A stretch of DNA of 64,000 nt from Branchiostoma floridae (Eukaryota; Chordata; Leptocardii; Amphioxiformes; Branchiostomatidae). Shown piece by piece: positions 24,601-63,600 of the stretch (positions are counted from its first letter, which is position 1; every line of letters starts with the position of its first letter). The stretch covers positions 21,151,645 through 21,215,644 of the forward strand of contig NC_049981.1 in NCBI RefSeq assembly GCF_000003815.2. Direction: 5' to 3'. The translations under genes were made by a program, and so were the position numbers. The notes under the pieces were generated by a model, which was not told the DNA's origin, ran no database searches, and worked only from the letters and a program-made list of their open reading frames with translations.

Positions 24601-27600
24601 GGGCTATGGAACGACTACTTAAAACTATACCTTAACTTTTTCATTATAACAGTGTCTGTGTTCTCCTTTCAGAGAAGTTTGGTTCCTGCCCCCTGGAGAG
24701 CAGCTTTGAGGACATGAGCTGTGAGGTGCGCTGTAACTCCGACTGGGACTGTGCTCACTCCGAGAAGTGCTGCTCCAACGGCTGCGGCCAGGTCTGCGTG
24801 TCCCCTACTGTTCATGGTGAGTTAAACTTTACTGTATGACACTCTGATGCTTCTTCAGTTCTGTTGATAGTCTTTACTTGCATCTTTCTTACTTATTTGC
24901 GCCAAAAAAGGATATCCCGTCCTTGTATATTAAAAAAACTCTGTCTATCATCACAAAACCCATACATGATAAAAAAGATGGGATCTTTTATCTTCAACTG
25001 TCTCCAAAAATTTAAAGAAGTAGAACCCAATATCCCAGAATATAGAGTTAGTTTTTAGACTAGAGTACTAGACACCTGTCAATATTTGTTTTTTGCACTG
25101 TTTGAACCTCTCATGTTACCTACAACTAGGCCATGGGCAAGAATTTGCAATAAACTTATAATTGATTAATGTCCTTAATGCAATAAAGATGTTTTAAACT
25201 CTAGTCAAAATGTTGCTGTCTTGTCTCCCCACAGAGAAGCCGAGCCAGTGCCCCGCCATGTGGCAGATCTCTGAGGAGATCTGTAACGACGTGTCTCTGA
25301 TGTGTGAGTCTGACAGGGACTGTGTGGAGGACAGCAGGTGCTGCAGCACCAAGTGTGGGAAGAGATGCACCAGCATCACCACCACAGGTGGGTTATGTGT
25401 GGGTTACTGATTATGTGGGTTATGTGTGGGTTACTGATTATGTGGGTTATGTGTGGGTTACTGATTATGTGGGTTATGTGTGGGTTACTGATTATGTTGG
25501 TTATGTGTGGGTTACTGATTATGTGGGTTATGTGTGGGTTACTGATTATGTGGGTTATGTGTGGGTTAGGCTGAGGTCTCATTTCCAAAACGGGACCTGG
25601 CCAGGACGTTTGTGTAAATGAAAAATAAAAATTTTTACCAAGGAATATACACATTCAAATTAAATGCTCCTGACTAATCTCTATTACGTTCTGTGTGTTT
25701 TGTTGCCTTCATATTTTTCGTTTCCGAAAGCTACTCGGCTGGGCCCCGGGTTTGGAATTGGGACCTTGGGCTTAGACTGTGGGTTAGGATACACAGGCCA
25801 TAGGCTAACACACGGGGGAAAGGGCCACATGTCTTTTTAAGAGAAAAGGGGTCTGCATGGTTTCAGAATACCAAGTAGAGTGTGCTAAAATTCAATCTGT
25901 CTCACACAGTTCTGCCACCTTGTGAGGAAGAGAAGACCACCATTCCAATGACAACTTTTGGTCTTAAAGCTTGATTATCCCCCTGTACGTGTCCCCTTAA
26001 GAGAAAAAAGATCTTCATGATCTCAGCATGCCATTAGTAGTGTGCTCTAAAATTCTATCTGTCCAACACAGTCCTGCCACCCTGTGAGGAGGAGAGGACC
26101 ACCATCCCGACCACGACCTTCGGCGGTGTGTCCCTGCCCGTTCTCGGCCACTGGTACCCCACCTGCAACTCCTCCGGCTTCCACACCCCCAAGCAGTGCC
26201 ACCCCACCAGTGGCCTGTGCTGGTGCGTCGACGCATGCGGCCGCCCCATTGACGGGACACACACCTATGAAGACCTGGAGTGCAGTAAGTACATGTTCAG
26301 GGCTGGTGCCCAGCGTTAATGTTAATATAATGTTATATACTGCTATATACAGATGTAGGACTGATGTTCTGTGTTGATTAGTTCCATGCAGGATTATAAT
26401 GTTTAGTTTCACACAGGATTTGTGTCCTGTCTTAATGTTTCCTTTGTACTTAGTTCCATATACGATTCTGTTGTACTGTAATGGTAAGTTGCATACAGAA
26501 CTGTTGTAAGTTACAGTATTATTCTGCAAACTTCAGACCACTGCAAACACAGGACCATTTTCTCGCTGCTACAAAATTAGATCACAATAAAGATATTTTG
26601 TAATTACAGTATTTTGCTCACATAACCAGCACCCAGAAACTCCCCCAGCCACCAGGCTAAGTCCAACCTTGGTATTGGGCCAAAGCCCCTTACATTCATA
26701 TTTTGATGCAGGGTTCATCCTTGTTTCAGTAGTAACGCTGGTTCACCTTTATCCGAGGGTGACCTATATTCGTTGTTTGTGCAAAAAACGTATTTAGGGA
26801 TATAGAGTCGACGGAAGGTGGTTTTAAATCGGAACATTTTGAAAATGTTGCAAATTTGAAACCACTGTCAGCAGACTTAATACTCCTAGATGTGCTGTTT
26901 TTAAAGACAACGGATAAAAGTCACCCCACGGATAAAGGCGAACGAGTGTTACATCTTCTATTTAGTCTGAAGCAGTCCTAACTTTATTTTTTATTCACAT
27001 AACCAGCTGGTCATGCCCCCTGCCCCGTGGCTAAGTCTAATTAAGTCCATCATTCTACATTACAGTATGATGCAGGGTTCATCCTTGTTTTTTAGTATAA
27101 CTTCTATCCAGTCTGAAGCAGTCCTAAACATAATATTTAATGTTCACATAACCAGCACCTACTCTCATGTCCCTAATAAACATACCTTCCGGAATAAACA
27201 TACCCCCCGGACAAATCCTCAATATCTAATAAACATACCCCCCGGAATAAACATACCCCCCGGAAAATTACCAAATTGACAAGTATTTAACTGTGTCCAT
27301 GCTATTTCTGTCCAAAGAAAAGAAGATGATAAGCAGGTAGGTTCTTTTTATTTATTTATGCCTAAGAACCACATCAGTTGTATAAATAATGAGCTGAAGA
27401 ACTATAACAGATAACGTTATCTTGTTCGAATTATGATGTTTTCTCCATTTTGTAATAAAAGGTACAGTGAAACCCGCCTTATGAGTAACCTGAGTATAGG
27501 GGCCACTTGGCCATTTCGGTCAGTTTTCGTCGGTCCGTTGGATTTTTTACCTAATCATTAAGAAATAGTCAATAGCGGTCACCTGTCGAATGCGGTCGCG

Positions 27601-30600
27601 GCCAGACGATTTTCAGTCCGGCCGCTATGCCAACACTGCCGAAGGCGGTCACCGGCGCGGCGCGACTGGCGGGGTTCACTTTTTTCAATTTCTGCACTAC
27701 ATCAGCAAAATGTAGGCTCAAATTAGACGATTTACGAAGGAAACGTTGAATAAAGAAACATTATACAAAATTATGTGATTTTATGCGAAGTTTTTCCACC
27801 AAAGTGGTGTTGAATTCACGCGGCGTTTTTTCTCGTCCAGACTCTTTGCACTCTACGTATACCCTTCTCTACGTCGTCATATCTGTGCAAACTGGTAGAC
27901 TATATGGACAGATTTTACAAATAGACCGTCCGTTCATGTATCTGATGTTTTAGGTTCTTAAAATGCTTGTACGCTGTCACAATTTTCGTATTCCGCGGGC
28001 CAAAAATGGAAATCTCCGTCTCCGGTAATTTTCCAAGATGGCGTCAGCAGCAGATAAACAAGGTCACTAGGGGTCAGTGGGCGACTCCATTTTTCCAAGG
28101 TAAAATGTCGCAACAAGAATTCTCATGTGTAGCATAAAATACAGTGATTACGGTATAAAAACGATTAAAATCTATTACATGAAACTTTTTTATGTGAAAA
28201 CTAGACTAAGGCTGATTTTTGCCGGAGAAATAAGCCTACGTAAAGAAAGTTTATTTCGACGTGACCTTCTCGGCATAATGGCACATGCATCTACAGAGGA
28301 AAGTGTTTGTGGCGGTTTGAAGCTTAGAAATGATTATGAACTTGCTGTTTTTACCGACGAATTCCTGCCGTTTTGGAGAATATGCGGCGTCAAAACTCAT
28401 ATCACAAGGGAAACGAAGTTATAGTTGTTATTTTTACGTCCAGTATTTATTATGTGAACGAATCACTCTTCCCAAGGAGCTTTTATCACCTTGCTCTTCC
28501 GCCTCGCTGACGAAAGAGCATGGAACCACAAGACCGGAAATTCCTCGTGCAAGGTGCTGGTTTACGATGTAAACAGAAACTGTAAACTACTACTAAATTA
28601 AAACTAAAAGTTATTTATGTAAAAATTGTATTTCAAAACGTCAGTGCGGTATCTTATTTTCCCCCAAGAACAACATTTACTTCGTAGCGTCATAGCGAGA
28701 TGGAACGACATCACCGAAAGTGTACCGCGTACGCGGGTCAAAACGCGGGGAAATCCGCGCTGTTTCGCCCGACAAATAGTGAATTTTGAGCAAAAATACC
28801 GCGGAAATATGGGCAGAAACCCAAAAAAAATTCAATTCTTTGAGGGTCCTGGCTTAGCAAAGCCCCAATTTTCAGAAAAAAAATAAACGTACCGTCCAAA
28901 ATAAGAACGTACCGGGTGGATTGTGAGGCTGAAAAAAATAAACGTCCCGGTACGTTTATTTGGGACATGAGAGTAGGAACACCCCTTGCCATGAGGCTAA
29001 GTCCAACCTTAGAACTGGGCCAAAGCCCCTGTTCGGAAGTTATGATGCAGGGTTCATCTTTGTTTTTTTAGTGCAACACCTATCAAGTCTGAAGCAGTCC
29101 TAACATAATTTTTTTCACATAACCAGCACCCAGGAATGCCCCCTGCCACGAGGCTAAGTCCAACCTCCTGCGCCCTGGCCTGAGGCCTTTGCTCGGAGCC
29201 TTCAAGCCCCGCTGCATGGAGGATGGGTTCTTTGAGACCAAGCAGTGCCAGGGCTCCATGTGCTGGTGTGTGGACAAGTGTGGGCATGAGGTCCCCAACA
29301 CAAGGGGGCATCTCAAGGACGTCACCTGTGGTAAGTTTGTTTGTTTTATTATGATCTCCATATATGGAGGATGGGTTCTTTGAGACCAAGCAGTGCCAGG
29401 GCTCCATGTGCTGGTGTGTGGACAAGTGTGGCCACGAGGTCCCCAACACAAGGGGACATCTCAAGGACGTCACCTGTGGTGAGTATGTCGGAAGACCCCG
29501 GTTCAAATCCTGGGAAGGGTATCGCGGTTGGGACTGCGTTCTTCCAGAAGAGGCACATACAAGATCAAAAAGACACAGGCCTAGCATTTCCTCCCTATGA
29601 AAATTTACCGTTGTTCACAGTCTGCAAATTGCCTTAGAGGGGCTTCAAGGGCTACAATTAGAGGGGAAGGGCTACATGTACATGTAGCATTTAAGTTCCC
29701 ATCCCCATGAAAATACAATTTGTATGCCACTGCTACAGAAACAGCATTGCAAGTAAACTTGCTGACCTACATGTATGTGCCACTAGGCAACAAAATAGTA
29801 AAAAAAAACAGTTATTTCTTGGTTATGAAAAAAGAATAACGTTATCATGCTATAGAATAATGTTATCATGCTATTAAGAGAGTCTCCGAAGTGTTTGAAG
29901 ATGTTCCCAGTATTAACGTTGTTTGTGTTCCACCAGACCAGTGCCCAGACAACCAGAGAGCCTTCCACTGCCCCAAGAACCCCTGCGATGACGTGACCTG
30001 CCCAGAGTACCCCGAGGCTCGCTGCTTCCCCTCCATCTGCGGGGGCTGCAAGGCTGAGTTCTTCATCGAACAGGGGAAGAAGGTCCAGTGCAATGTTGGT
30101 AAGGAGTCGTCACTTTTTGCGGATTTTGTTTTTTTACTGAAATACATATTCACAACTGTCACCTGTGGTATATCAGGAGACCCCGGTTCAAATCCTGGGA
30201 AGGTATCTCGGTCGGGGCTGCACCGTTCTTTCAGAAGGAACATAAATTTGGACGTAACAAGGTCCAGTGTAATCTTGGCAAGGAGTCATCACTTTTTCCA
30301 GACCCTTTTTTAGTAAAATACACATTCATTCAATTTACCTGAGCGGGCTATACTTGTCTTCCTGATGTGCTATGTGATAAAGGACTTTAGTTTGTGATGT
30401 TAAATGTCAGATTGTGTTCCAAAGACGGGATGCATATCGTCTGGGTTCTACAGCAAGGTGTTTATTCTAAATGGAATAGAAAAAAATCTTTTTGTTTTAT
30501 GTTGTTTAAATGTGTGTATGTTTGTATGTGTCTACAGTGAAGAACCATACCTGCCCCCTGACGTCTGACATGCCCCAGACCTGTGAGACTGAGTGTGCTC

Positions 30601-33600
30601 ACGATGGAGAGTGCCCCGGGACTCACAAGTGCTGCTCCAACGGATGTGCTTCCGTCTGTGTCAGCCCCATCACTGAGGGTATTCTATTTCTGTTTCATTT
30701 GATGTTATAACTTTAAAATGCGTTGTTAGATTGGCTAATGTTGCACTTGAGAACATGTACAATGTGCCTCACCTCCATTGCCTACAGGGGACCCAACATC
30801 TGGAACCACCACCATACGTACGCACAGCCCCAGCTCTGGTGTCCTGTAAGACACTCATAAGAAACGGAAACGACAGAAATAAATGGACTTGAAACATGTA
30901 GCACCTCTCACTATTATGTACTTTGTACTATGTATGTAAAATTGTGTATATAAACTTATAAGACTCATTAGGATGTAAACTGTATATACAGTACGTACTT
31001 TGTCTGACAATTGCCTCTTCCCTCATGACCTCAATGAAAAGCTGCATTTGAGCTATCCTGAATAAACGAATTTTTCAAATGACTAACAGTGTGCAGACAT
31101 ACTGATGTCTCACTAATGTTGGAATCTGCCCACAGAGCGCCCCGGCTCCTGCCCTGCCATCACCTTCAGCGACATCGGCTCCTGCTCCACCACCTGCTAC
31201 AGCGACTCCGAGTGCTCCGGGGTCTCCAAGTGCTGCTTCAACGGCTGCGGCAAGACTTGTGTGCATCCCGAGCCTGTTGGTAAGTTTGATGTGTGTTGTA
31301 AAACAAAATTAGGGTCTTTACATGCAGACTATGAACTGTGGCTGTGGCAAGACTAGCCCTAAATAGGGCTAAAGGGTATCTGAATAAAGGAAAAAGGAAG
31401 ACTAGTGTCCATTCGGAGCCTGTTGGTAAGTCTGATGTGTGATGTGAAACAAAGGTTAGGATTTGTGGCTTTCACCCAGAAGGCCGGGTTTAATTCCCAG
31501 TGTGAGAAAGGAGTAGAAACAGGCAACCAATATCCTGACTCCTGGTATTCAATCCCTTGCTGATCCTGGGCCGCCAGACTACAAACCGGCCCAGCACACA
31601 GCCAATTATGCCAAAAGGCTGAGGCTCAAAGCCATTTGGCATGGTCAAGTTTGGCGATGCTTAAACCCAACTGTTACACCATGAACCTTGGCTTTGGCAA
31701 GAATACTGATCAATACTGATGACCAATCTCTTCAGAACATAAACTCGCAAGAGTTACAGGCACTTGATCTTATTAACACAAGATCTCGTTGAAAATTTTT
31801 TCCGTGTATACATTTTGTACTCTTGTGTTGGAAGAAAGTTAAGCACTATACTCATAATGATTACTACCAAGTTGAACACAGAATCTGGTATGCTTCCATG
31901 ATCATAAAATTTACATATTTTGGTATCCACACTCAACAGTGCATGAGGGTGAGTGCCCCGTCCAGTGGGAGAAGACATGCACCACCGAGGAGAACCAGTG
32001 TGAGGTTGATAACGACTGTATCGGCAGCCAGCGCTGCTGCGACAGCGGCTGTGGCCTGCGCTGTATCTACCCCACACAGACCAGGACCATCACCTCCGAC
32101 ATCCAGAGCATTGCCGTCAACGCCATCTTCACTGCCACCATCACCAGGGGTAGGCTTTCTTCTGTCCTCCATTTCAAATACTATCTAGTTGTGGGAATAC
32201 ACTTGTCAGTTTGTTCATTTTTATCTGAGGGTTAACCTATATTTGTGGTTTTTAACAATATTATTGAGTATTTAGGGATCAAAGCAAATCAAATCAAAGG
32301 ACCGTGGTTTCAAACTGCAACTGGTTATGTTACACTGAATGACCTGTCACATAAAGCCTTTGTACATCTATCTGCAAGCATTGTTTAAACATTCTAATGA
32401 ACTCAAAGCTAACTAAATGATGACTCCCTTTTCTTTTTGTTTCCAGAAATGACGAGCGGCCAGTGCCCCCACCCAGACAACCTTGAGTGCGACCACCTGA
32501 GCGAGTGCCTGCAGGATGAGGACTGTACTGATGGCAGCATCTGCTGCAGCAACGGCTGCGGATTCACCTGCACACCTCCATGGACCATGGGTTTGTCATT
32601 TATCTGAATTCCTGCTTCTGTTCTGCAAGTCCACATAAGTAGCAGTGTGATTGCACAACTAAGGTCTCGAGTGATCTCGCATGGGTTTGGCGACTTCTGC
32701 TGCGTTCTCGTGTGTGTGTGTTAGTTTAAGTTTATTCTCTTATAGTACAATTCCTGCAAATGTTGCCTCTTGCAGCATACCACCCCCATTGTATCCCCTA
32801 ACACCCTCTAATGATCAAGAAAAAAGATCCATTCATGATCAATGAAGTGGTCAAAATTTCCCAACATTCACTGACAAAAAGAAAACTACAACCTTTTCGA
32901 CTTTCCAAGACCCACTAATTGCGGATAATATCTGACTTTGTCTTCTAGTAAGTTCTACGTACTGCATCCAAAATTAAGTCAAATACAAAAGCATTGAATA
33001 TCTGCTCCTTGAATGTTGGTATGGAATGAAATTGAGTTGCTTCATCTTATTACTACAAATTGTAGTATGTAGAAAAGTGCAAAGAAAATTGACTTTGATA
33101 ATTGAAGTTCTTACAAATCTCACTTGGGCTAGTACTATAGGTTGCCTTTAATAGTGCTAAAATATGATTGTCTATACTGCAGAGAAATACGGCCAGTGCC
33201 CCATGACTTCTGCTGCCTTTGACAAGATTGGGTGCAGCCTGGAGTGTGATGGTGGCATGTGTAATCATCAGTGCAGCGACGATGGGGACTGCCCCGGCTT
33301 CTCCAAGTGCTGCATGGACGGCTGCACCCGTGTCTGCGTCAACCCATGGATGTTTGGTAAGCAGTTCTGGAAGGTCTATTCTCTTAGATGTCTGTCTATG
33401 TTGTGCCAGAAGAAAGAAAATGAAAGATACACAGTAGCCAAAAATTTACTGACTAAATACTACAAATTAATATTGTGGAACTTGATATTGGCATGCATGA
33501 GTGTATCTATTTGCTTGTTTTTAGTCCTTTCAGCCATTCTTTAATTTATTTATTTGATATTCATTTACTCAACTTCTCACTGATTTTGGCCGCACTCCTT

Positions 33601-36600: not shown

Positions 36601-39600
36601 AAAGGAGAACTAGCATTAGATAATTGGAGAATTTATTTTCAAATTGACTCTTCATCTGTGCAGGTCGTAAGATGAGCTGTTCCCTGGAGGACCGTGAGGT
36701 TGGCCACCAGAGCTCCTGGAGGCCCAACTCCTGCACCATGTGTGAGTGCCGCGACGGCCAGGACTTCTGCGCCAACATCGACTGCCCCGCCTTCACCAAC
36801 CCCCTGTTCTCCGACTGCATCAAGGTCTACGTCAAGGGACAGTGCTGTCCCGAGACCATCTGCAACAAAGGTTAGACACAACGTAGTGTTTATGGAATCA
36901 TTAGGACTTCAATCGTGTAATTTTTGTCTTTGTTATATTTTATCTGACTCTCATATTACCTCCTCTCTCATGATGTTAAGAAAAAGTGGCCTACAATTTG
37001 CTTTTAGCTTCCTGTGAATAAGTTATTTTATCAAGTTTCAAATGAACTTTTGTGGCAAAAACACATCACAAACATGGCTAAGCTTGTAGACCCCCTCGTC
37101 CAGGTTCATCAGTGGAGTTGACTTTCTTATCCAGACTGCCTCCTTGATCCACCGAATCCAGCTGTTGTCTTCCCTGATAAATTAAAAAAATTCAGAAGTT
37201 GAATTTCAGTCTGACTGTAATTCTAATCCTACCCCTGCAGCTGAGGTCTGCACCTGGGAAGGCCAGACATTCTTCGATGGTGAGATGTGGCAGCCGGAGA
37301 CCTGCAGCACCTGCCAGTGTGTGGGCGGAACCACCCGCTGCGTCCAGACCACCTGCCCGGTCACCCCACCCGGCTGCCAGGCGGTCCCCGTCAACGGAAA
37401 GTGCTGCCCAGACATCGTGTGCCAGCCCCATCATCATTGTGAGTCCCCTTGCTATACACCTGTCAGTATCTTCTACTAAACTATAAGAGTACATAAGAGT
37501 AGGGCTGTGTACCTAAATACCCGTACCTGTAAAATTGTTTAGGTACAGGTTTGACCTAAACATCTGTGTACCCATTCCTATACCTAAACTAACAAAATCA
37601 CTAGTGGACACCATTGTTTAAGACTACAGATAGGTAAATCCAGTATCAACAATGACAATTGTAATGATAATCTTGCAGTTGAAAATTTAAAGAAACTTTG
37701 TTTTGAGGCTCAAATGTGTAATTCTTCATTCAAAGATGACAATTAGTTATATATTACCCGTGTCAACCACACCCACAGATCCCGTGTGCAAGGACACTGA
37801 AGTGATGCACCACGAGGGCGACAGCTGGCACCAGTTGGACTGCCAGGTCTGCACCTGCAGGAATGGCGTCACCTCCTGCACTTTTGACAAAACTATTACA
37901 CACAAATATAGTAACCGTTATTTTGTTAACTGTTGTTTACCACACCAACAGCTCCAGTTTGCAAGGACACTGAAGTGATGCACCACAAGGCACCAGTCAA
38001 ACCGCCAGGTCTGCACCTGTAGGAACGGCATGACCTCCTGTACTTTTGATGAAGCTATTACACACACATGTAGTTATTTTGTTTCCTCTTGTTAACCATA
38101 CCCACAGCCCCCGTCTGCAAGGACACAGAAGTGATGCACCACGAGGGCGACAGCTGGCACGAGTCCGACTGCCAGGTGTGCACCTGCAGGAACGGAGCGA
38201 CCACCTGCACCACCATGGACTGCCCTGTGACCGAGGCCGCGCCCGGCTGCCACCTGATGCAGGTGCCCGGCCGCTGCTGCCCCATGCAGATCTGCAGGCA
38301 CATTGATGGTAAGGCCGGGATGATTGTTATTTGCCTCCAACTGTTTATACTTGATTGTCAAATACTGTAATTCACTTTGTCTTCTAGGTATCAAACTGTC
38401 ACGGTCTGAGAAACTTGAACTTGTTCTCGGAACTAAATGTTCATGGTGGCAGCAGTTGCGCGTGAAAAAAAGTCGACAAATTATTTCTCTTCTTCTTGAC
38501 AGTATTAGTTAGACAGTTAAAATACAGTAAGACAGTAAAATATTGTATGTGATTTTCGTTTAATATGAGAATTTCTCCACCACAGAGTCCAGCTGCACTG
38601 TTGTTGAGACCGAGCTGACCTACCAGCACAGCGCCACCTGGCAGGAGGACAGCTGTACTACATGCGCCTGTGTGAAGGGAGTGATCTCCTGCATGCAGCA
38701 GACCTGCACCGTGCCCAGGGAGGGCTGCATCGTCGAGGAGGTGGAGGGACAGTGCTGTCCTACCGTCACCTGCCCGAAAGGTACACTGTATGGGTGCATA
38801 CCCAGGGCTCGAAATTTGTTTTTGGGATTAGGTGCACTGGTGCACCCAACCTAAAGTGTGCACATAAAAATTTTGGGGTGCATCACATAAAATAAAAGTA
38901 GACTAAGGTAGAAAAACCTTATTACAAACCTCACCGGTCCTCGTCTGGGTATCTAAAATTTCAATGGACCCAAATTCCAACTTCAAATTCTTAAACAAGT
39001 ACTATGACAGACATATTTCTAACACTTGGATTCCAAGAATAAGGTGCATAATTGTATGTTTAGATGGGTAAATCTGTGAAAATATTTGGGTACACCCACA
39101 TAAAAAATTGGGTGCACAGCTCAAATATTGGGTGCACATGCATGCACCCAGTATTTCAAGCCCTGATACCGGTATGGTGCAATGCTAAGTTCACCTTTAT
39201 ACGAGGGATAACCTATATTCGTTGATAACGAGGTATTTATGATGGATATTAAGTCGCCGAACGTTGGTCTCAAATTGTAGTATTTTTAATACATAAAAAC
39301 ATATCAAATATTGCAGTTTGAAAATACTGTCCATCGACTTGATATCCATGAAAACCATGTTTTTTAAAAGAACGAACATAGGTTACCCCGCGGATAAAGG
39401 TGAACTTGCATTACTGTTACAAAACCGTTTTTTCTTGTTCTATCGGTCCAGAAAAAACGGACCTGGAAAATATCTGTGGACTGGATGTTGGACCAATTTG
39501 AAGATGAACAGATTAGTATGGCATGCCGGCAGGCATTTGAGAGTTTTGAAACTTACAGAACCAAGGTCTTAAGAAAAGAACAATTAGCGAAATAGAGTAG

Positions 39601-42600
39601 ATTTCATAGTAATTTCATAGTAATTTACCAGGCTTCTACAGTCAAATTTGGTCTAAGACAGAGGCAGTTAGTGTTGTTTAGACAAAGATAGGATTTTGAA
39701 TGCCAATGGATATCGGATACCAGAGGAGAAAAGCTTATTAATTTACTATTATGCCGATAGCATGCATGCCAAATCACTTTGAAGATAACTTCTTCTGAAA
39801 GGTAAAAGCTAGATATTAACATCATCTATTTGAATGTTTGATATAACACAAATTGATATTACCTTTAGATACTAACCAGTTGCGTTGGTTGAACAGAAAA
39901 GCTGGGCAGCTGCCCCATCCCGCTGTTTGACTTCCTGTACGAGTCTGATGACTGTACCGATGAGTGTGAGGAGGATACCGACTGCATGGGCTCCTCCAAG
40001 TGCTGCTACAACGGCTGCAGCCGCATGTGCGCCAAACCCTGGATTGATAGTAAGGCATTTTTAATGTTCGAGTCGAAATACCCACTTGCACACTTGCAAA
40101 CGCAAGCACATTTTGCTTGGCAGTAACTTAATTCTAAACCCAGATAGCATGTAACTGGAAGAAAAGATAATGGATAAGTAGCTAATTTGAAGAAAGTAAT
40201 ATATGTAACTGGAAATGGGCAGCAGGGAAAGACAGCACAACAGTACATGAGAATTTATACAGTAATGTATGATTGTGAAGATGTGTAGCAGCAGCACTAA
40301 GTACTGTAAAACAATACTCATAGAGTTTACAGAATGACCTTGAGCTTTGTTTGCTGTAGGGTGTGTGAACAGCAGGGGTAGACAGCACAGTAGTACATTG
40401 TGCAGTATATGTAACAGCTACAGAATGACCTTGATCTGTTTGCTGTAGGCTGTGTGGACAGCAATGGCAGACAGCACAACAGAACATGCACAGTATGTGT
40501 AGAACATAGTGTTACAGACTAATCTTGACTTGAGCTGTTTGCTGTAGGCTGCGTGGACAGCAGCGGCAGACAGCGCAGTAGTGGCGACGCCTGGCAGCAG
40601 GACGCCTGCACCATGTGCTCCTGTGTCAACAACCAGTCCGTCTGCACCCAGCAGGTAAGACTCCCTTCACTTTCACTTTTACAAACAGAGAAAACAATAC
40701 AATTCAATCTCTACGACTGCGATGCTGAGGAAGAGTGATGGATGTCACTTCAAACATACAGAAGTGATTACAAGCTCTAGATCTGTTTTTTACCCAGTTG
40801 TAGAGATTGAATTGCATTTGAATACTGTTTTCTCAGATATTTGTTGACAATATTCGATGCAAAACTATGTATCAGCTGCCACAAATTGCACATTAAAACC
40901 GAAAGACATAGCTGCTCTCTTCTGGAACAATGAATATATCAATATTGTAAGCTAGATAGAATAGAAGATGAGCAGCATTTGTAGTAGTATGTTACATAAC
41001 ACTGACACTGACACTTTGTCCTTTACCTGTAGGAGTGTCCCCGTGCCCCCAACGGCTGCACCACCCGTCATGTGGAGGGCCAGTGCTGCCCAACCATCAT
41101 CTGTGAGGAGCAGGAGAACAGTAAGATCTTTTATTTCGCACAATGTTAGATGTAGCTAGTACACCTTTATCTGCGAAGTAACCTATATCCATTGATTTTG
41201 AAAATGGGGTATTTAGGGATTTCAAGCTGACAAAAGGTGGATTTGAATTGCAGTGTTTTGAAAATATTGCACTTTGAAACCTCCGTCCGTCGACGTGATA
41301 TCTCTAAACAGTGATGGTCTCCATTTTCAAAATCAACGGATATAGGTTACCTCATGGATAAAGGTGAACTTAATATATTACATGTATTTTGTGCCTTCTT
41401 TAATCTTTCTTCAGCCTCCTTGCTACAATTAAACTGATTTTGGTGTTTTTCTGGAAAAGTTGAACTGTAATTTCCAACACGAAAATTGGACTTACGCAAA
41501 TTTTTGACTGAACAGTCTTTGTCACTGAATGAGCAATCCAAGTCTGTTTCTGTGACGTCACATTATGCAGATACATTTTGTAGAACATGTAACTCGGTGA
41601 GCAGTGGATCATATGTGGCAGAAAGCCTATGGCACCCACTGTCTCTGTTATATGGGATCATTGTAAAGCTCTGATAAAGATGGCTTCCTGCAACTAGAAA
41701 ATTTGGGTAAGTCAAATTTTCATGTTGGAAATTACAGTTCAACTTTTCCAGAATAACTTCTACCAAGAATACAGATGAGCTTCAAGTTAAGATTGTGGTG
41801 TTTGTCTGGTCTTGTTAAACAGAGGCCACCTGTATGGTTGAGGGAGTGACCTACACCCACGGCAGCTCCTGGATGCCTGACAACTGCACCACCTGCACCT
41901 GCGTGTTCGGGCGCAGCTACTGCTTTTTGTTGTACTAAACTGATTGTGGCGTTTGTTGTCTTGTTGAACAGAGGCCACCTGTATGGTTGAGGGAGTGACC
42001 TACACCCACGGCAGCTCCTGGATGCCCGACAACTGCACCACCTGCACCTGCGTGTTTGGCCGCAGCGACCGCTTTTTGTTGTACTAAACTGATTGTGGTG
42101 TTTGTTGTCCTGTTTGCAGAGGCCACCTGCATGGTTGAGGGAGTGACCTACACCCACGGCAGCTCCTGGTCACCTGACAACTGCACCACCTGCACCTGCG
42201 TGTTCGGGCGTAGCGACTGTGACCGTATGGAGTGCCCTGCCATGCAGAGGACTGGCTGCCGTAGCGTGTACATCCCCGGACAGTGCTGCCCTGAGACCTT
42301 CTGCCAAGAAGGTGGGACACGTCGTTAGTTGTTAATCGTTAATCACTCCTTTTAGTTAATATTTTCTTCTTACTTTTTGATTTATATGTCGATCGTTCGT
42401 GCATGACATAAATCATTTATGATAAAAGTTTCTGGCATGTTTTACCAATTGCTGATGAATTGATCCTTAAGATCACGTGTTAGTAAGATCATGTATGTAA
42501 CTTTCGTGAGTTGACGTTCTGTAGTGATTGGTCAATAAGAGTGTTGATCCCGAAGAAGTCGACAGTGGTCGTTGAAAATTTGATCCGCGTGTACTTTTGT

Positions 42601-45600: not shown

Positions 45601-48600
45601 ATTAAGTCAAAGTCAAGCAGTGAAATTCTTTCATTAATGGCTCTACTTTTCTGTGTTGACCAATGCGCGATGCCAATATCATTGACTGTGAAAGATAACA
45701 AGTATATCAAAAACTCACAGATGGAAAAATCTTACTTGCGTTAGGACAGTGCTTGCCTGATCAGCACTTTCAGTTGCCCGGGACAATCAGGCTAGTAGAC
45801 TCGTCCAGTCCTGCTTTTGATAATACACGATGATGTCTCCTGCAGTTCACAGCTGTTTGGAGGGTGGCATGAAGTTCCAGAACGGTGGGCAGTGGCAGAA
45901 CGACAGCTGCAGTTAGCACTGTTTGCATGAAGATAGGATATTCTGTACCAGTTACTGTAAATAAGCATTACTAATGATGCTGCCTCCTGCAGTTCACAGC
46001 TGCCTGGAAGGTGGCGTGAAGTTCCTGAATGGCGAGCAGTGGCAGAACGACAGTTGCACCAGCTGCCGCTGCGAGCACGGCAGGACCATCTGCAGCAGCA
46101 CCTCCTGCGCCCCCGCCCCCACCGGATGCCAGTTCGGAGAGCGCGTGCCTGGCCAGTGCTGCCCCAACGTCGTCTGCCCCACACAGACTGGTGAGTAAAA
46201 TAGGCATCAGCATGACGATTATTTAAGAAGGCTGATGGATTGTCTTCAAAATTGAAATTTATCGGTTTGGCTGTTCGGCACACAAAGCCAGGGATGCCCA
46301 ACTAGCCTGTGGCTATTATAAAGGGCTAGCCCTGCTGACAGACAAGGGCAAATGGAAGTTGACATGGACAGGATAAAAAATTAGTGAAAATATTCTTGGT
46401 ACATAAAAATATAATATCTGTATAAAAAAACAACTAATACATATTTTTATACAATCATATTAAATTGAAATGTATCAGGTAGATCTAGATTCAAGTGTTG
46501 TTTTACTGTGTTTGCCACCAAGGTCCCACCTGCACTGACACCATCGAGCTGGAGGAGACCCAGTTCTCCCACGGGGAGTCCTGGCAGAGGGACCCCTGCA
46601 CCACCTGCACCTGCATGAATGGTAGAGTCCGCTGCCACACCCAGAGCTGCCCCATGACCGTGGAGCACGGCTGCAGGGCCGTACATGTGCAGGGACAGTG
46701 CTGCCCCAACGTGGTCTGCAACCAAGGTTTGTTTGTTTGTGCCTTTATTCAATAGTGCTCCACTTTTTGTGGAGGTCGAGTTGGGAAGAGTGACAAATGA
46801 ATAAATGAGTTAGTGAATGACTTGATGAGAAAATTGTTTAACTCAAATAAAGAAAAATGAATGAATGTCTAGTGTTAGTATTGATACACTCCAAATCTAA
46901 ACTCTTAGTTTTTTTCTTGCACCTGTAAGTTGTCTGAGAAAAGGATATAATATGATTGAAATACAGTAACTGTTAATTCAATTCAAAATGTTTGTTCACA
47001 CATATATGGTGTCTGTGTGTTGCAGGAAAGGTTGGCCAGTGCCCAGTTGTTTCTCCCACCCTGACTGAAGAGATGTCCATGACTGACAGCTGTGTGACCG
47101 ACTCCGACTGCGCTGGAACCACCAAGTGTTGCCACAACGGCTATGCCTTCACCTGCATGCGCCCCTGGATCCTGGAGAAGCCTGGTAAGGTTCACCAAGA
47201 AAAAAAAGAGCACTTTAAAGAGGTCACTAAATTCCACCTGGATTTTTCCATGTAGTAGCGTGCTTAGTTCAGTGGTCAGCGGCCCTGCCTCTGGAACTTG
47301 AAACGTTGAGTTCAATTCTGGCTGTGTCGCTCACCCAACATGTACGTTGCCAGGAAGGTTTGCAGTACTTAGGACAGGACGTCAAGCCTTTTCAGAAAAT
47401 CTAGAATGACTTACAGTTTGACTTCCTTTTATGTGTCTCCCCCCACTCATATGTTTTGGAATCTTATTACCAGGTTTGCCAAGTGATCATGAATGACACT
47501 TCTAATTTCCATTCATGTACTACCAGGTGTCTGCCCCGCCATGGCCCCCTACACCAGCCCCTCTACTGAATGTAATGTGGAGTGCAGCAGTGACATGGAC
47601 TGTGTGGACAGCCACAAGTGCTGCGGAGATGGCTGCATCAGGACCTGTGTGCCCGCTGTGGACATGTCTGTCCAGCAGACTTTCACCAGGCAGCAAACAG
47701 GTTAGTCCTAACTGTGCAGTCAAACCTGTGTTAGTGGTCACCTGTGCAGTGCAGCTACCTTGCCATAGTCTGACTTTTGACCTAAGCGCAGTAGAGAACC
47801 CACCACACCTTTTAAAAAAGAGTAAGGCCATGCCCTGTGTGTGATGATACAAAACAGTCTGTCTGGAGTGGGTGATTCATTGCAAATCACTTGTTACTTA
47901 GGTGTATGAAGTAAGGAAACATAGGTTGACATCAGCCTATAAAGTTCATTTCTCTTTGTTGTATTTAACTCAGTCTATAAAAGATAACTTTATTTTACTT
48001 ATGAAGAAAGTTTACTTATTCATAAATACTTAAATGATCAAAACTAAATTTCCTTTCATATTTCTGGAAGGCTGGAAGTCCGGTAGATGTCCCAACCTAA
48101 TGCAGACGTACTGGACCCCCCTGATGTGTATCAGCAAGTCTTCTGATGATTGCACTGTGATCACAAGGAAGTTTATTCAAATACTTGATTCAAACTAAAT
48201 TTCCTTTCATATTTCTGTAAGGCTCCAAGTCCGGTAGATGTCCCAACCTGATGCAGACGTACTGGACCCCTCTGATGTGCATCAGCAAGTGTGCACTGTG
48301 ATCTTATTGATAAATCCTTCATTGAAACTAAAAATTTCTTGCATATTTCTGGAAGGCTCCAAGTCTGGAAGATGTCCCAACCTGATGCAGACGTACTGGA
48401 CCCCCCTGATGTGCATCAGTGAGTGCTCTGACGACATGGACTGTGACGGGGAAGACAAGTGCTGCTCTACCGGCTGTGGGCAGGTCTGCTTCAGCCCTGT
48501 GGAAGACACCACTGGTCAGTCAGGAATAGCAATATTACCTTTATTACCATTTATCCACCACTTCAAAACATAAAGAGAAAAACATGTACTGGAGTGTTTG

Positions 48601-51600: not shown

Positions 51601-54600
51601 AGCAACATGCCCCCTTATCCTTAAGGGAGCAAATTCTATGACAAGCATGAAATTCATTCCTAAGGGTTATATTTCCTTTGATTTTACGAACACCAGTGAA
51701 AATTTCTAACAGGTTATTACATACTCAAAGTCCTTCTTTAGCTTTTGATACTTCCTTGGTTTGAAGAGTCCAGCTTTTAACAGTTTGTTACCCAAAGTCC
51801 TTTAGCTTTTGAAGCTTTTGATACTTCTTTGGTTTGAAGAGTCCAGCTTTTTAACAGTTTGTTACTCAAAGTCCTTCTTTAGCTTTTGACACGTCCTTGG
51901 TTTGAAGAGTCCAGGCTTTAACAGTTTGTTGTCCCTGCCCTGTCCAGAGAACCTGTGTGAGTCTGTGTCCTGCGAGATGGAGTGCCAGCACGGCTTCGCC
52001 ACCGACAGTGAGGGATGCGAGATCTGCAGGTGCCAGCTGCCAAGTGAGTACTGCTTCCTTTATATGCAGGCCTAAAGTTATAGAGGAGTTACCCAGTCTA
52101 CAAACGACAAAAAAAATATTTGCACCAGGCAAATGGGATACATTATGTTTTAGTAATTTATAATTTCTTTGATCATTCGAAGTAGCACAGTGTGTATTTT
52201 CTTATTGAAAAAAAGTGTATGGATGGCTGTATTAAAAAAATTTCTTTTGGTTGTTATTGGAAACTAGATTAATTCCTTTATTCCTTTATTCCGATACCCT
52301 TTAGCCCTATTTAGGGCTAGTCTACCAGGGTTCATATTAAGATGATTCATGTATGAAACAGTAATAAAAACTGAAAGGCAGGAGTCACAAAGTTACACAA
52401 AGGACATGCAGTCATATCACGTTACACACTCAGTACTGGTAATCACAATTTGACTGTAAGGCATTTTGTTGACAGCCTCCCACACCTGCCAGCCCCTGAT
52501 GTGCTCCCTGGACTGTGAAGCCGGGCTCGCAACCGACATGTACGGATGTGAGATCTGCAGGTGCAAGAAGTCTGGTGAGCCAAATTACTACTTAAATGCT
52601 CTAATGCCTTTAACGTTTAGGGGAAATTAATGTCGTTTAGATAGAAGATGGGTAGTTAACGGTGGTTTCACAGTTAAGAATTATTAGATCCTTTTTGCAT
52701 ATCAATTCATAGTTAGAACTAAAAACTCTCTCCTGGAAGATATCTCCAGTGTCACTGACGGATATTTGTCTGAAACGTCAGACCATTTCCAAAATCATAT
52801 TCAGTTGCTTGAGTAACTGCTTTTTGGCGTATGTGGACATATCCTCATGAAATAACACTCAGTCTGGCCTTCAAACTACATTCTGTAGTATTTTAAAATC
52901 TTTTTTACTTCGTTTTCAGAGTCTGAGTGCGAGGTTCCCAGCTGCGAGTTTGAGTGCGACTATGGCTTCGCCACCGACAACACCGGCTGCCAGATCTGCA
53001 AGTGCAAGCTGCCAAGTAAGTCAAGTTTGAAACAATTTAGAATTAAACGTTGGGTCATATAACGCAATCGGCAGGGCGTTGATTCATAACCCAGGGTTTG
53101 CTGATGTGGCACCGATATCGTGCTCTTGGGGAAAGGCAGTTAACATGACTTTCCTTAGGTGAAAATGACTACCTAACTTTGGTTAGTGCTACTGAAACGA
53201 AGATGGCCGCCACCCTATAGGGCATCAGGCGCGGGAAGGACTTTGACTTTTTTTTAATATATGATTCATATCTTCACTCACAACTGAACTGAACTGAACT
53301 CACACATGCACTGAGATTCACTGTGAAGATTTGTTTTCACAGCTGAGCATATAAGTGACTTGTTTGCTGGACATATCCTTCACACACATGTGCTCTGAAA
53401 TTCACTATGAATAATTCTTTTCACAGCCGAGCACATCTGCAAGGAGAACATCTGCTCCATGGACTGCAAGTTCGGCTTTGCCACTGACGTCTTTGGCTGC
53501 GACATCTGCAAGTGCAAGAAGCCAGGTAAACACACATCTCTGTGCGATTGGCGGGTGCAATGGCTGAGTGGGTTGAGTGTTTGCCTTGCATTGGGTAGGT
53601 CGTGAGTTTGATCCCCAGCTGAGTCATACAAAAGACTTTAAAAATGGTACAATACCGTACATGCTAATTGTTGGGTGCCATTGAAAATACATACAGTCAT
53701 ACATGTATATGCATCAATACTACATCAAATAAGGTAGCATGGATTTCTTTAAGAATGGCATGAAGTATAAAGAAGTAAACTGTCTTGTAGGATGATCTGC
53801 AAGTATAATAAACACCATTTAATTATGTGTAAGACATAATGCTATTTACTGCAATAATTCAGGCTTTTGCATTATTTTGTGAATGTTGATTTTCCTTGTA
53901 CTGATTTCAGATTTCGAGTGTGAAGATGTGAACTGTCGTCTTTTCTGTCCTCATGGATTTGCCACCAACAAGGAGGGTTGTGAGGTCTGCCAGTGCCGCA
54001 AGCCAGGTAAGTTAGGATCCCCAAATTTAAAACTGTTGTTAATAACATCCCACATTCAATGTGTTATGAAAGATGTGCATGTACTGGTGTATCGGTGTGG
54101 CCTAACAGTTGAAGCATTGGGCTCAAAACCAATTGGTCCGGGGTTCGATGCCCACCATCGAAGATGTTGTGCACTTCACGCCACTTTCCCTGATCTGTTC
54201 AAAGTGTGCCAAAAAATGCACGCACAGATTCACTGTGTCATCTGCACATTTGCACTAAGTATGGTAATTGTTTTTTCAAGAGGTGTCGCTTGTAACACAA
54301 CTTACTGTTATTGTACACATATTGTAAAATGGGATACTTTAGTCTCACACTCTCTACATCTTTCTAAGCCATTTCCGTAAATGACCCTGTACCAAAAAAA
54401 AAACAGTCTTTTCTTTCCTGGTACACTGTATTGTGTGTAGTCAATATTTTTATGTATTCCTTTATTTTTATAAATGATAGGATTTGTGGGTATCAGGTCT
54501 TTTCGTCCCCTACTCTCATGTCCCTAATAAACGTACCGGGACGTTTATTTTTTTCAGCCTCACAATCCACCCGGTACGTTCTTATTTTGGACGGTACGTT

Positions 54601-57600: not shown

Positions 57601-60600
57601 AATCTGGACATAAGTTTTGATTTTAATCTTCACAGCTTGGATTGTACGCATTTAAACATAACTGTAGTACCTTGTACAGACTTAAAGATAAAGATCATCG
57701 TAATGGACCAAAAACTAATCTTTTCAGCATCTGAATGCGAGTTCTTCGAGGGCTGCTCCCTGGATTGTACCTTTGGCTGGGCCACAGACAACCATGGATG
57801 TGACATCTGTAGATGCAAGCCTCCAGGTATCATCATCATCATTTATCTATAACAGCCTACAGATTAATCTTTTTGATACTTTGTGAATAGCTTCCATAAC
57901 ATTGTTGATATCGCTAGGGAGCATCACGCTTTCTTGAAAATAAAAAAAAATCTGGACAATTTTTAAAAAAGTTTTATGAAACTATTTTGGGAAGTCTCCA
58001 GATTGTTTCAAACAATCTCCAGATGTTCTAATGCAATATCAACATTAATATTTTACCAGATGAGTACAGTACAGTGGATACTGGATACATAAATAGACAT
58101 TACAAAGCAGACTGCAGAAATAACAAGTTTCGTAGATGTAACTTTATGTAGTTTACACAATTTAGTAGTACTCAGCCATTTAACTTCACAGTTTGTAACT
58201 CGGTATTGTTCTCCGATATGTTGATTTTAATCAGTCATTTATGCTACAAACATGTTAACCAGAATGTAAAAGTCATTGTATGCCTCTAATGTTCGTATGT
58301 GTTTTATGACAAAGCCTGACATGTGTAATAAGGTCGAAATTCGGGTGAATGTGTGTTTGCCCGTGAGAACCTTACGGAATAAAAACATTGACATAATGAT
58401 TGAATTGTGTTATCTGTTGTACAAAGCTGACTAACACTAAATGTTCTGTTCTGGTTTTGATATGGTTCCTTTTAACTTCCAGTTGCCATCACCTGTAAGC
58501 CAGTGAAGTGCCGCATGCTGTGCCACCACGGCTGGGCTACTGATGAGTACGGCTGTGACACATGCAAGTGCAGGGTCCCACCAACAGGTAACTGAGTTAG
58601 ATGGCACAGACCTATTCCAAAAATAATTTCATCAGGTTGGAAGAACTTACTTAGGGTATTGAAGATTTCTTTTGCACAACCATGCAGAGTGTTTCTTACT
58701 TGCTGACATTTCGATGCCTGTCAGACATCTTCCCCAGAGCTTCTAACTGCTTCTCGCTGCTATTTGCACGATCCCAAATGTGGCTGAGTTTGTACCCCCC
58801 TATTCACGGTTCATCACTCAGTGGTTGACCACCTGACATATTCTGTGTAATGCATTGAGCAGTTTGAGTGTCCTCTAACCATTGTGCTCTTGTTTTCCCC
58901 TCTGACAGAGTCCCTGTGTGAGGGGCTTACCTGCTGTGTCTCCTCTAACCATTGTGCTCTTGTTTTCTCCAGACAGAGTCCCTGTGTGAGGAGCTTACCT
59001 GCTCTGTCCCCTCTAACCATGGTGCTCTTTTTTTCCCCTCTGACAGAGTCCCTGTGTGGCTGTGTGAGGAGCTTACCTGCTCTGTCGCCTCTAACCATTG
59101 TGCTCTTGTTTTCCCCTCTGACAGAGTCCCTGTGTGAGGAGCTTACCTGCTCTGTCGCCTCTAACCATTGTGCTCTTGTTTTCTCCTGACAGAGTCCCTG
59201 TGTGAGGAGCTTACCTGCTCTGTCCCCTCTAACCATTGTGCTCTTGTTTTCTCCTCTGACAGAGTCCCTGTGTGAGGAGCTTACCTGCTCTGTCGCCTCT
59301 AACCATTGTGCTCTTGTTTTCCCCTCTGACAGAGTCCCTGTGTGAGGAGCTTACCTGCTCTATCTCCTGCCCATTCGGTTATGCCACTGATGAACAGGGC
59401 TGCCAGGTCTGCAAGTGCAAGCTGCCCAGTAAGTATTCCTCTTTCATGTCATGCCTGGGCCTTGATAACATTTGATCAGATGTTCCAGACCTAGATTCTA
59501 CATTAACTATCATGAAACACTGAGTGTACTTGTACCAGTCTTCTAAACATAGAGCTACAGGGTCTGTTTCTCTAATAATGTGTCACAAAATTAAGATGTG
59601 AAAAAAAATTCAAAAATGACCACTTGCATTAAGTGGTTAACGTTACCCTATATAAACAAACTGCTTTTTGACCCTGTTAGCATCATTAGTTGACAAATTT
59701 CGTGCTTAAGTGAGGAAAAAGTTTTGGAACTCAAAGTAAAGATTGTGGTATCTTTAAAAGGTGCCTGTGTCTTTTCTTTTTAATACAGCCCCTTGCCAGG
59801 CCCTCGGCACAGAGATGTGTGACCTGACCTGCGAGCACGGCTTCATGACCGACGAGGCCGGCTGCCAGATCTGCCAGTGCCAGCAGCGCTCCTCCCGCTG
59901 TCCCGAGCTCGACCGCGACTGCCGTATGGACTGCCCCTGGGGATGGAGCACCAACGAGGAGGGATGCATCATCTGCCAGTGCAAGAGGCCTTGTGAGTTT
60001 TTTTATGACACTAGTTCATGATAAAAATTTGATTCTTGATAGATCATCTGCCATTGCAAGAGGCCTTGTAAGTTGTTGTTTTTTCTATGACACTAGTTCA
60101 CAATAAAGATTTGATACTTTGATTGACACAGTGTTTTAGCCAGCATCCATTCTTCCTTCCTCTGACGGAATTTCGCAGCTTGGAATGGACAAGAATTTTG
60201 CACATGCCATTCTCTGTGACGGACAAAATTGGCCTGTAAACATTGAACCAAGCTGAAACTGGGTCTACCTGCAAAATTTGTCCCTCAAAATAGAAGAAAT
60301 TGCGTTTCAGAGGATCCTACCCCAGTCAGGCTGGTGCCTCAGGTGATACGGAATACACCATGTTGTTTTCTATATGTTTGTACTACCTCCAAGACATCCT
60401 GAGTTACAGCCACGTATTGTCTCTCCCTTCAGCCGTTTGCACCCCGCTCACCGAGCAGACCTGCCCCCTGACCTGTGTGGAGGGATATGCCACCAACACC
60501 TTCGGCTGTGAGATCTGCAAGTGCAAACCCTCAGGTAGCCACCACATTGGCTTCTCATTTATCTAGTCACACACACGCACACACACAGTGACACACACAC

Positions 60601-63600
60601 ACACGCCACCAACACCTTCGGCTGTGAGATCTGCAAGTGCAAACCCTCAGGTAACCAACACCTTCGCCTCTTATTCATCTAGTCACACACACCAGCAACA
60701 AACGCACACACACAGTGACACACACACACACACGCCAGCAACACCTTCGGCTGTGAGATCTGCAAGTGCAAGCCCTCAGGTAACTAACACCTTGATATTC
60801 GCTTCTTATTCATTATGATTCATCATTACATTTTCCATTAATTCTCATTAATAAAACAGGTTTCTGACTTTTTTCCTTAAACCTTCCTTACTACATCTAG
60901 AAACACACACTTAAAAATACACACATACACACTGAAAATTCCCGTGATTGGTGCTGAACACCACACTCTTAGTGCAACATGCCTGTCCTTGGTACTGAAA
61001 AACACTCTCTCAGTGCAACATACCTGTCCTTGGTGCTGAACACCATTGACTCACTGCAACATATCTGCTCCTGTTAAACACCATTTGCTTTATAGAACAT
61101 ACCTACCCTTGGTGCTGAACACCACTCTCTCAGTGCAACATACATGTGCTTGGTACTGAACGCCACTCTCAGTGCAACATACATGTGCTTGGTACTGAAT
61201 ACCACTCTGATTCCTGTTCTTAATGCTAAGCACCATTCACTTGGTGCAACATACCTGTCCATGGTGTGAAACACCATTCACTCAGTGAAACTTTCCTGTC
61301 CTTGGTGCTGAATACCACTTGCTTAGTGCAACATGCCTGTCCTTGGTGCTGAACACCACTCTCTCAGAGCTTCATTAGCATATTTACGCAGTTTGTAGTG
61401 CTATACACTGTATACATTGCTTGACATGTAACTTTCAAGTACATGAAAATTCTTTTTTCTCTCAGTATGATTTACTTTTGATTTGTGATACTTGTGATGT
61501 TTATAAGCATTTCTGTAGATAATACTAATTTCATAATGATGTCTTGAGCTGTAACAAGCTGTTGTGTTGTGTCATTCACTAACATTTGCTCACTATCCGG
61601 TTTAGCGTCTGTTGTTCCCTGTCTTGCAAGAGTTGAACATTGCAAAATGTTGTTCAGGTTTGATTGCTAAGTAATGCTTTTAGGTATTTCTGCAGGTGTA
61701 ATGATATATTTATGATGGCTTCTTGAGTTGTAACAAGCTGTTGTTGTGTCAGCTGTTTCCGAGGTCTGCCAGACCGACGTGAGCCTGTGTAAGATCTTCT
61801 GCCCCTACGGCTTCATGACCAACCAGGACGGCTGTGAGACCTGTGAATGCAGGCTGCCAAGTAAGGGTTTCTCAAACTATGCGTTTGTGAAGATAATATT
61901 ATTGTTAGGAAAGAAACTGTCTATCAAGGTCACTTGAATGAAATATTTTTATGAAATGTTCATTAAGAATGTTTGTAATTGATACGCAATTCAGACATGT
62001 ACATTGACTGCCAGGTATCTACAAATAAACTATTCATTCATCTCCTATTCATTCATTTTAGTCTCTAGCACTGCAAAACTGAACGAAATAGAATTTTCGT
62101 AAACTGGCATGAATTGATACAGTAAATTCTTGTAATAAATTTGATTGTGCATTAGAGAGATCACTACAAAAATAATGTGTAAACTTTAAATGCACTACAA
62201 TAGTTAAAAAACATGCTGTCTTTTTCAATTACATTAAGAATCTCTCGCTAAAAAGTCAAACCTGTATATTGAATGATGATCCTTTAGATCATCTTTCTCA
62301 TGGACAGTCAAGCATTAGTTTCCACCTGTTATGTCATTTTCCAGTCCCTGAGTGGTCTTCTTAGGCAATTTTGACTTATTTTATTTGTATGCTTGTTGTC
62401 CAATGTAGCAGTTTCTATGCTAAATTTTGTTGTTTCCCGCGCACAGCTTCCGTCCAGATCACATCTGTCTGCAGGAACAGGCCTTGCCACAAGTTCTGTC
62501 CTCACGGCTTCCTCACCGACAGCAGCGGCTGCCAGACATGCACCTGCGCTGAACGTAAGTACGAGACCTACTAGCAGGCATAACACACTCTTACATGTCC
62601 ATGAACAAAGATTGCAAAGTGTGTATACATAAATGTATGTGCTGGGCTCTTTCCAGCCTAAGATTTTCCGTTCTATTAGTTTGATACGTTAAGTATACTG
62701 AATGTGTAAGGGATCCATTCTGTATCATATTAAAAGGTGCAATTGTGTATGGCTACCTGAGCACTACCTGAATAAGAGGAAAAGGTGGCAATCTTACTGT
62801 ATGACCTTTTTTTTCCTCTGTTGAACTGCAATTTCTAGCACAAAAATTGGACTTACCCAAATTTTCGACTCAACAGCTCCAGTCTTTGTCAAGGAATGAA
62901 CTTCCTGCAACTTATTATCCACTGCTCAATGAGTCACGTGTGCCATCCACATAACGTGGCGTCTCAGAAGCAGTGGATTGTCCATTCCTTGACAAAGACT
63001 GAAGTCTGTCAGTAAAAAATTTGGGTAATCCCAATTTTTGTGTTGGAAATTGCAGTTTAGCTTTTACAGAATGTCTTTTACCAACACAGATGAACTTTAT
63101 CCGAATGAAAGCTGATCGGTGTTGGTAAATTCCATAGGGAAAAAATTAAAACTTTGTTCCAACACGAAGGTCGGAGTTCTTGACCGAAAATTTATGGTGA
63201 GTCTTCTTATTGTGTTGAAACAAAGTTTTAACTTTTTCACTACAGATGAACTTTCAAGTTAAAATTTTCCTACATTTCCCCAGTGCCCGAGCAGGTGTGC
63301 CCCCACATCAAGTACGGCACCTTCGGCAGGTGTGTTGACGAGTGTAGCCATGACGACATGTGTGCACCCAACCAGCTCTGCTGCTCCAACGGGTGTGCCA
63401 GGACCTGCATGGAGTCGGTCTCTGCCCGTAAGTCTTTTTTGATATTAGCAAGCTCCGATGCTCTCTTACGTACATACAACTTGTTTGTTTCTTTGAACCT
63501 TTATTTATTCATGAGAAGCTCAAAGTGGCCTGCAGCCTGCTTTTCATTGAGGTCATGAGGGAGGCAAGGTCAGATGAAATATAAGAGATACAGATTACAT

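Follow-up and report, generated by a model that had tools for sequence, protein, structure and literature searches.

The host gene and its partial exon copies

The window analysed here is a 64,000-base stretch of the Branchiostoma floridae genome (G000:C3:21151645-21215644; genome 513.4 Mb in 431 contigs), and we investigated the short tandem copies of exon edges that accompany many exons of one gene within it. This single gene, on the + strand, occupies positions 19454 to approximately 73255, roughly 21,171,000-21,225,000 of contig C3, and continues past the window end at 64000; no exon could be placed before 19454. In total, 65 exons were placed, with exons 1-55 inside the window, and when joined they give one open frame of 3,228 residues, including 482 cysteines, without a stop. 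The exons are mostly of phase 1-1 and carry one module each; five of the six exons scanned matched Pfam families (thyroglobulin-1 (Tg1), WAP, VWC and antistasin), the sixth giving no match. No known RNA was found in the window with Rfam at gathering thresholds.

Inspection of the exon edges revealed two kinds of partial copy. An acceptor-side copy consists of the intron end, the AG and a truncated start of the exon, whereas a donor-side copy consists of the exon end, the GT and the intron start. Nine acceptor-side events (exons 7, 8, 21, 24, 26, 31, 35, 44 and 49) and four donor-side events (exons 8, 11, 50 and 51) had been described in the initial annotation, whose exon numbers are higher than ours by two, and all of them are present, as is the upper figure of six copies at a single exon, seen at exon 49. 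The donor-side copy of exon 9 had gone unnamed, and the confinement of the series to 25850..60790 did not hold, as seven more events lie beyond the window in the same gene, at exons 57 (both ends), 58, 60, 61, 63 and 64. Both boundary types are affected, with acceptor copies at 13 exons and donor copies at seven in our copy listing, plus the acceptor copies of exon 8. The acceptor-side copies had also been described as lacking a donor, which is correct for most, but three of the 22 that could be aligned (the copy nearest to exon 24, the copy of exon 31 and the middle copy of exon 61) carry a GT of moderate strength at an open position that keeps the frame. The events in the window are as follows, with the exon number of the initial annotation in brackets.

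25837..26108, + strand: exon 7 (9), one acceptor-side copy; copy acceptor before 25910, true exon 26072-26284; 81% over 112 bases
26612..29166, + strand: exon 8 (10), at least three old acceptor-side copies; copy exon starts 26630, 27007 and 27156, true exon 29127-29330
29216..29488, + strand: exon 8 (10), donor-side copy of 115 bases of exon end plus donor; copy donor after 29478; 96%, with 3 synonymous and 0 replacement changes
30249..30328, + strand: exon 9, donor-side copy; GT now GC (after 30277)
31252..31453, + strand: exon 11 (13), donor-side copy; copy donor after 31425
37761..38210, + strand: exon 21 (23), two acceptor-side copies, at 37779 and 37952
40319..40582, + strand: exon 24 (26), two acceptor-side copies, at 40360 and 40449
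41791..42219, + strand: exon 26 (28), two acceptor-side copies, at 41823 and 41972; unit ~149 bases; 92%
45829..46058, + strand: exon 31 (33), one acceptor-side copy, at 45846
48015..48446, + strand: exon 35 (37), two acceptor-side copies, at 48071 and 48222
53301..53436, + strand: exon 44 (46), one short acceptor-side copy, at 53343, with 10 exon bases only
58865..59368, + strand: exon 49 (51), six acceptor-side copies of ~70 bases, at 58909, 58977, 59047, 59125, 59193 and 59263
59968..60119, + strand: exon 50 (52), donor-side copy; copy donor after 60067
60489..60813, + strand: exon 51 (53), two donor-side copies; copy donors after 60650 and 60779

An element with inverted ends (~27159-28976) has inserted into the last acceptor copy of exon 8 and divided it, so that this copy predates the insertion.

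Tandem duplications are concentrated on exon edges

Blind self-comparison of the 54.4-kb gene region (direct repeats at most 700 bases apart with at least 70% identity, low complexity removed) gave 28 tandem clusters, and 18 of the 28 cover a splice site. Random placement of the same unit lengths puts 6.5 ± 2.2 clusters on splice sites, with a maximum of 16, so that none of 20,000 draws reached the observed 18. A cruder placement, based on the full length of each alignment, predicted 12.5 where 19 were observed (P = 0.007), but it inflates the target since array matches span several copies; the two tests agree in direction and differ in strength. The final cluster and boundary counts use a donor of exon 58 at 67254, whereas the whole-length placement and the divergence, codon, splice-score and stop analyses below used 67241. 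When all placed exons were masked, 24 clusters persisted, and 15 or 16 of these adjoin the same boundaries; the constrained exon therefore does not create the signal, and the excess cannot be put down to exon conservation alone. Away from splice sites, the gene holds 10 clusters in 54.4 kb, compared with 12 in 80 kb of random background (eight 10-kb pieces, out of 20 first drawn), and the gene flanks hold 6 clusters in ~29 kb and 12 in ~60 kb. As this density is close to background, the excess sits on the boundaries. The tandem copies are real and non-random, and they lie on exon edges clearly above chance.

In order to place the gene within its genome, we examined 13 control loci (7 myosin and 6 CCT chaperonin) drawn from 142 myosin and 60 chaperonin family matches, a small control from two conserved families. 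The 71 family-match places yielded 66 exons that scored above 1 at both splice sites, other exons of the control genes being left unplaced. These loci contain 12 tandem clusters, eight of which lie on splice sites against ~1.6 expected (a figure that uses a unit length of 90 for two clusters, in L035 and L036). The eight events affect 8 of 132 boundaries in five of the 13 loci, on other chromosomes, and four of them fall in one myosin locus. The host gene is ~2.7 times as dense in partial-exon copies, with 19 of its 130 boundaries hit against the 8 of 132 (odds ratio 2.65, Fisher p = 0.026), although the test treats boundaries as independent, which they are not within one gene. These figures supersede an earlier count from seven myosin loci under a different rule (4 events at 62 boundaries). 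The idea of a duplication-prone locus stands as to proneness, but the effect is neither locus-wide nor unique, being confined to exon edges and found at 8 of the 12 control clusters. Exon edges are prone to tandem duplication in this genome, with the host gene at the high end and not alone.

The myosin locus with four events (L029, C10:21155000-21159000) carries copies at four of its six tested splice boundaries, and an array of ~100-base units extends over 1.2 kb before one of its exons. In five of the eight control events, differences were counted at 6 of 169 exonic and 17 of 93 intronic sites; the other three were dropped, as the array aligned to itself, and the remaining five are too few for a codon test.

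Divergence and splice sites of the copies

Divergence was determined for 31 aligned copies (22 acceptor and 9 donor), a set that includes two of the six exon 49 copies and is without exon 44. In the exon parts, 146 of 1,483 sites differ from the true exon, compared with 192 differences over 1,578 sites (12.2%) in the intron parts. Replacement changes amount to 71 in 1155.7 sites (6.1%), half of the intron value, as expected because the copy decays while the true exon does not, and synonymous changes to 73 in 284.3 sites (25.7%). Outside CpG, the corresponding values are 4.3% for positions 1 and 2, 14.4% for position 3 and 11.6% for the intron. An in-frame stop is found in 2 of the 31 copies and an indel in the copied exon part in 3. 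The copies have many, graded ages.

Coding selection on the copies was considered, since the replacement to synonymous ratio of 0.24 is suggestive, but is not claimed, as replacement divergence stands at half that of the introns, with copy-specific changes numbering 10, 10 and 21 at positions 1, 2 and 3. Likewise, nucleosome-sized units are not claimed: 5 of the 20 nearest spacings under 250 bases fall within 146-148, with P = 0.087 under a smoothed null.

The AG is present in all 24 acceptor copies of the copy listing and the GT in eight of its nine donor copies. Acceptor scores average 4.4 for copies, 6.3 for true sites and -0.6 for any AG, and donor scores 4.5 for copies, 5.3 for true sites and 0.0 for background, on matrices that were built from the true sites and are biased toward them. 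An extended exon would meet a stop in all 22 aligned acceptor copies and in seven of the nine donor copies, and only 11 of 31 copy spacings are divisible by three. The stops argue against coding use and not for selection, any intron tail being likely to hold one. At exon 58 (67069-67254, beyond the window) the donor at 67254 scores 6.0 and the copy donor at 67389 scores 6.9; the extension to 67389, of 135 bases, is open and in frame and repeats the end of the VWC module, making it a candidate alternative form.

Relation to amphioxus mirage minisatellites

Structures of this kind have been described in amphioxus as 'mirage' minisatellites, with Adh3 and the globins BflGb6 and BflGb9 among the cases (PMC3087553, PMC3902484), to which PGBD5 was added with a citation of TnC (PMC3902484). 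Published mirages give normal reverse transcription PCR (RT-PCR) products (PMC3087553, PMC3902484), cases were checked by RT-PCR and on two haplotypes, and their origin was termed unclear (PMC3087553). As in the host gene, mirages are tandem copies of intron end plus exon start or of exon end plus intron start beside an intact true exon, often keep the splice dinucleotides and number one to six; their units of ~60-160 bases overlap those found here. The true exons of the host gene are likewise intact, and the frame is kept across all 65. On their sequence features, the copies appear to be amphioxus mirages and the gene a dense case of a described phenomenon.

Two differences remain. Around 20 boundaries of many ages are hit in the host gene, whereas the published reports give one or two per gene. 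For the host gene we have a rate against chance and against other genes; in published cases, splicing and instability were tested. No genome-wide mirage count was found in the open literature searched. What is new is the number of events in one gene, the controlled excess on exon edges and a testable but weakly supported proposal for their origin. In print, the mirage cases that we found were described gene by gene. Some 20 events of differing age in one gene, together with an excess measured both there and in unrelated genes, give a rate testable in pedigrees; the gene also offers a graded set of cases for studying how incomplete exons are passed over in splicing.

A tendency to sub-genic rearrangement is shared with lancelet exon shuffling and its 1-1 phase bias (PMC4284660), the host gene consisting mostly of phase 1-1 module exons; that study counts exons rearranged between species and haplotypes, whereas the copies described here are sub-exon and in tandem.

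Interpretation of the copies

The copies are very probably tolerated debris of passive tandem duplication, as in the mirages, and not a regulatory system. The detected units measure 35-185 bases, 108 on average. A small tandem duplication with one end in an exon and the other in the adjoining intron would leave one complete exon and a truncated copy with a single splice site. Because exon definition requires two nearby splice sites, we infer that the truncated copy would normally be bypassed and hence tolerated, after which it may decay or expand into an array by unequal exchange. The host gene probably owes its many copies to its wealth of exons together with a somewhat elevated rate. Two observations weigh against this account. 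Outside CpG, the ratio of changes at position 3 to those at positions 1 and 2 is 3.3 (bootstrap 2.25-4.8) where a plain-decay model expects ~1.7, an excess left unaccounted for, and the AG is retained in 22 of 22 aligned acceptor copies compared with 161 of the 194 remaining AGs of these alignments, although copies from the same array cannot be counted as independent, and alignment followed a rule that favours boundaries left intact.

The retained AGs and the good scores of the copy sites are what would be expected if the copies were selected splice decoys, competing for the spliceosome so as to tune exon use or intron retention. Decoy or poison exons are known to regulate intron retention, and the copies resemble them in having splice sites that lead to no full exon, but selection on the host gene copies is not supported. 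Replacement divergence is at the neutral expectation, stops, indels and a donor that reads GC point to decay, only 11 of 31 spacings are in threes, and use would mostly introduce a stop; we regard the decoy function put forward in the initial annotation as very unlikely, with AG retention as a mild contrary point. Somewhat better placed, yet still improbable, is exon birth, in which some copies serve as new exon parts or alternative forms: the exon 58 extension, whose donor outscores the true one, and the three acceptor copies with a moderate frame-keeping donor and open frame are consistent with it, but these are 4 of the 31 aligned copies, and nearly all others yield stops.

The remaining alternatives would make the pattern one of method. 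If boundary duplications were simply easier to detect, owing to the conservation of their exon half, the lower divergence of exon halves relative to intron halves would be in keeping, but the persistence of most boundary clusters after exon masking largely refutes this, and we consider it about as improbable as the decoys. Least credible of all is an assembly artefact in which haplotypes or reads were wrongly joined in tandem, as the initial annotation had also envisaged. Amphioxus heterozygosity is reported as 3.2-4.2%, and one mirage was aberrantly assembled in an old draft (PMC3087553); however, there is no N run anywhere in the host gene, the units are below exon size, the divergence between copy and exon is several per cent and mostly well above heterozygosity, like structures occur in the five control loci on other chromosomes, and mirages published from other amphioxus genes were checked by RT-PCR and on two haplotypes (PMC3087553).

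A possible origin in repair from the homologue

Slippage or unequal exchange explains arrays once they have begun, but not the preference of the first events for exon edges. As a tentative proposal, which we hold to be rather doubtful, aborted repair that uses the homologue may make exon edges hot spots of tandem duplication in this genome, with its heterozygosity of 3-4%. Repair would begin in the well-matched exon, abort in the mismatched intron and be completed by end joining, and the predicted product is a duplicate with one exonic and one intronic end, on either side of the exon, of conversion-tract size and already carrying allelic differences when it arises. In B. floridae, non-crossover tracts are estimated to have a mean of 99 bp, with 90.9% under 200 bp (PMC12500494), which fits the mean unit of 108 bases, and at exons 8 and 58 some close copies agree over the exon but lose their intron match soon past the donor. 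The combination of low replacement and high silent divergence also fits, given a silent diversity of 0.0397 in B. floridae (PMC12862219), as allelic difference at birth would push the third-position ratio upward, in the observed direction.

On the other hand, a model with 4% allelic difference at birth is barely better than plain duplication (log-likelihood -14.0 vs -15.7), and neither reaches the observed third-position value. The text of PMC12500494 makes no mention of exons or introns and so shows no exon preference of conversion, and intron-only units of similar size occur. If repair from the homologue were the origin, high heterozygosity would itself be a driver of tandem duplication at exon edges in amphioxus, and perhaps also of exon shuffling and the gain of introns.

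Other repeats in and around the gene

One further array touches an exon edge and was left out of the boundary-event count.

25388..25568, + strand: 27-base minisatellite of 6.7 copies, starting at the first donor base of exon 6 (exon end 25387)

Intron-only tandem arrays are found in the host gene at 60927-61370 (unit ~41 bases) and 51703-51930 (unit ~70 bases). The element that splits the exon 8 copy (27159-28976) has two relatives, at ~54510-56306 and ~21510-23150; all three have inverted ends (CTACTCTCATGTCCC... or CTACTCTCACCTCTC-like) and carry 18-base repeats internally. Two similar stretches, 29489-29550 and 30158-30237, each shortly follow a stretch like the end of exon 8 and contain GGTTCAAATCC, which we take to be a tRNA-like B-box, perhaps of a short interspersed element (SINE); Rfam gave no match to them. 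An intron element of ~200 bases, apparently palindromic by reading, starts like TTCACCTTTATCCG and ends like GGATAAAGGTGAAC, and is found at 24080-24260, 26733-26945, 36400-36620, 39190-39410, 41160-41370 and 44385-44600. Elsewhere in the genome, a related module gene (L014+L013+L015, C6:13008329-13038328) carries near-identical whole thyroglobulin-type exons every ~450-700 bases, a duplication of whole exons unlike the partial copies of the host gene.

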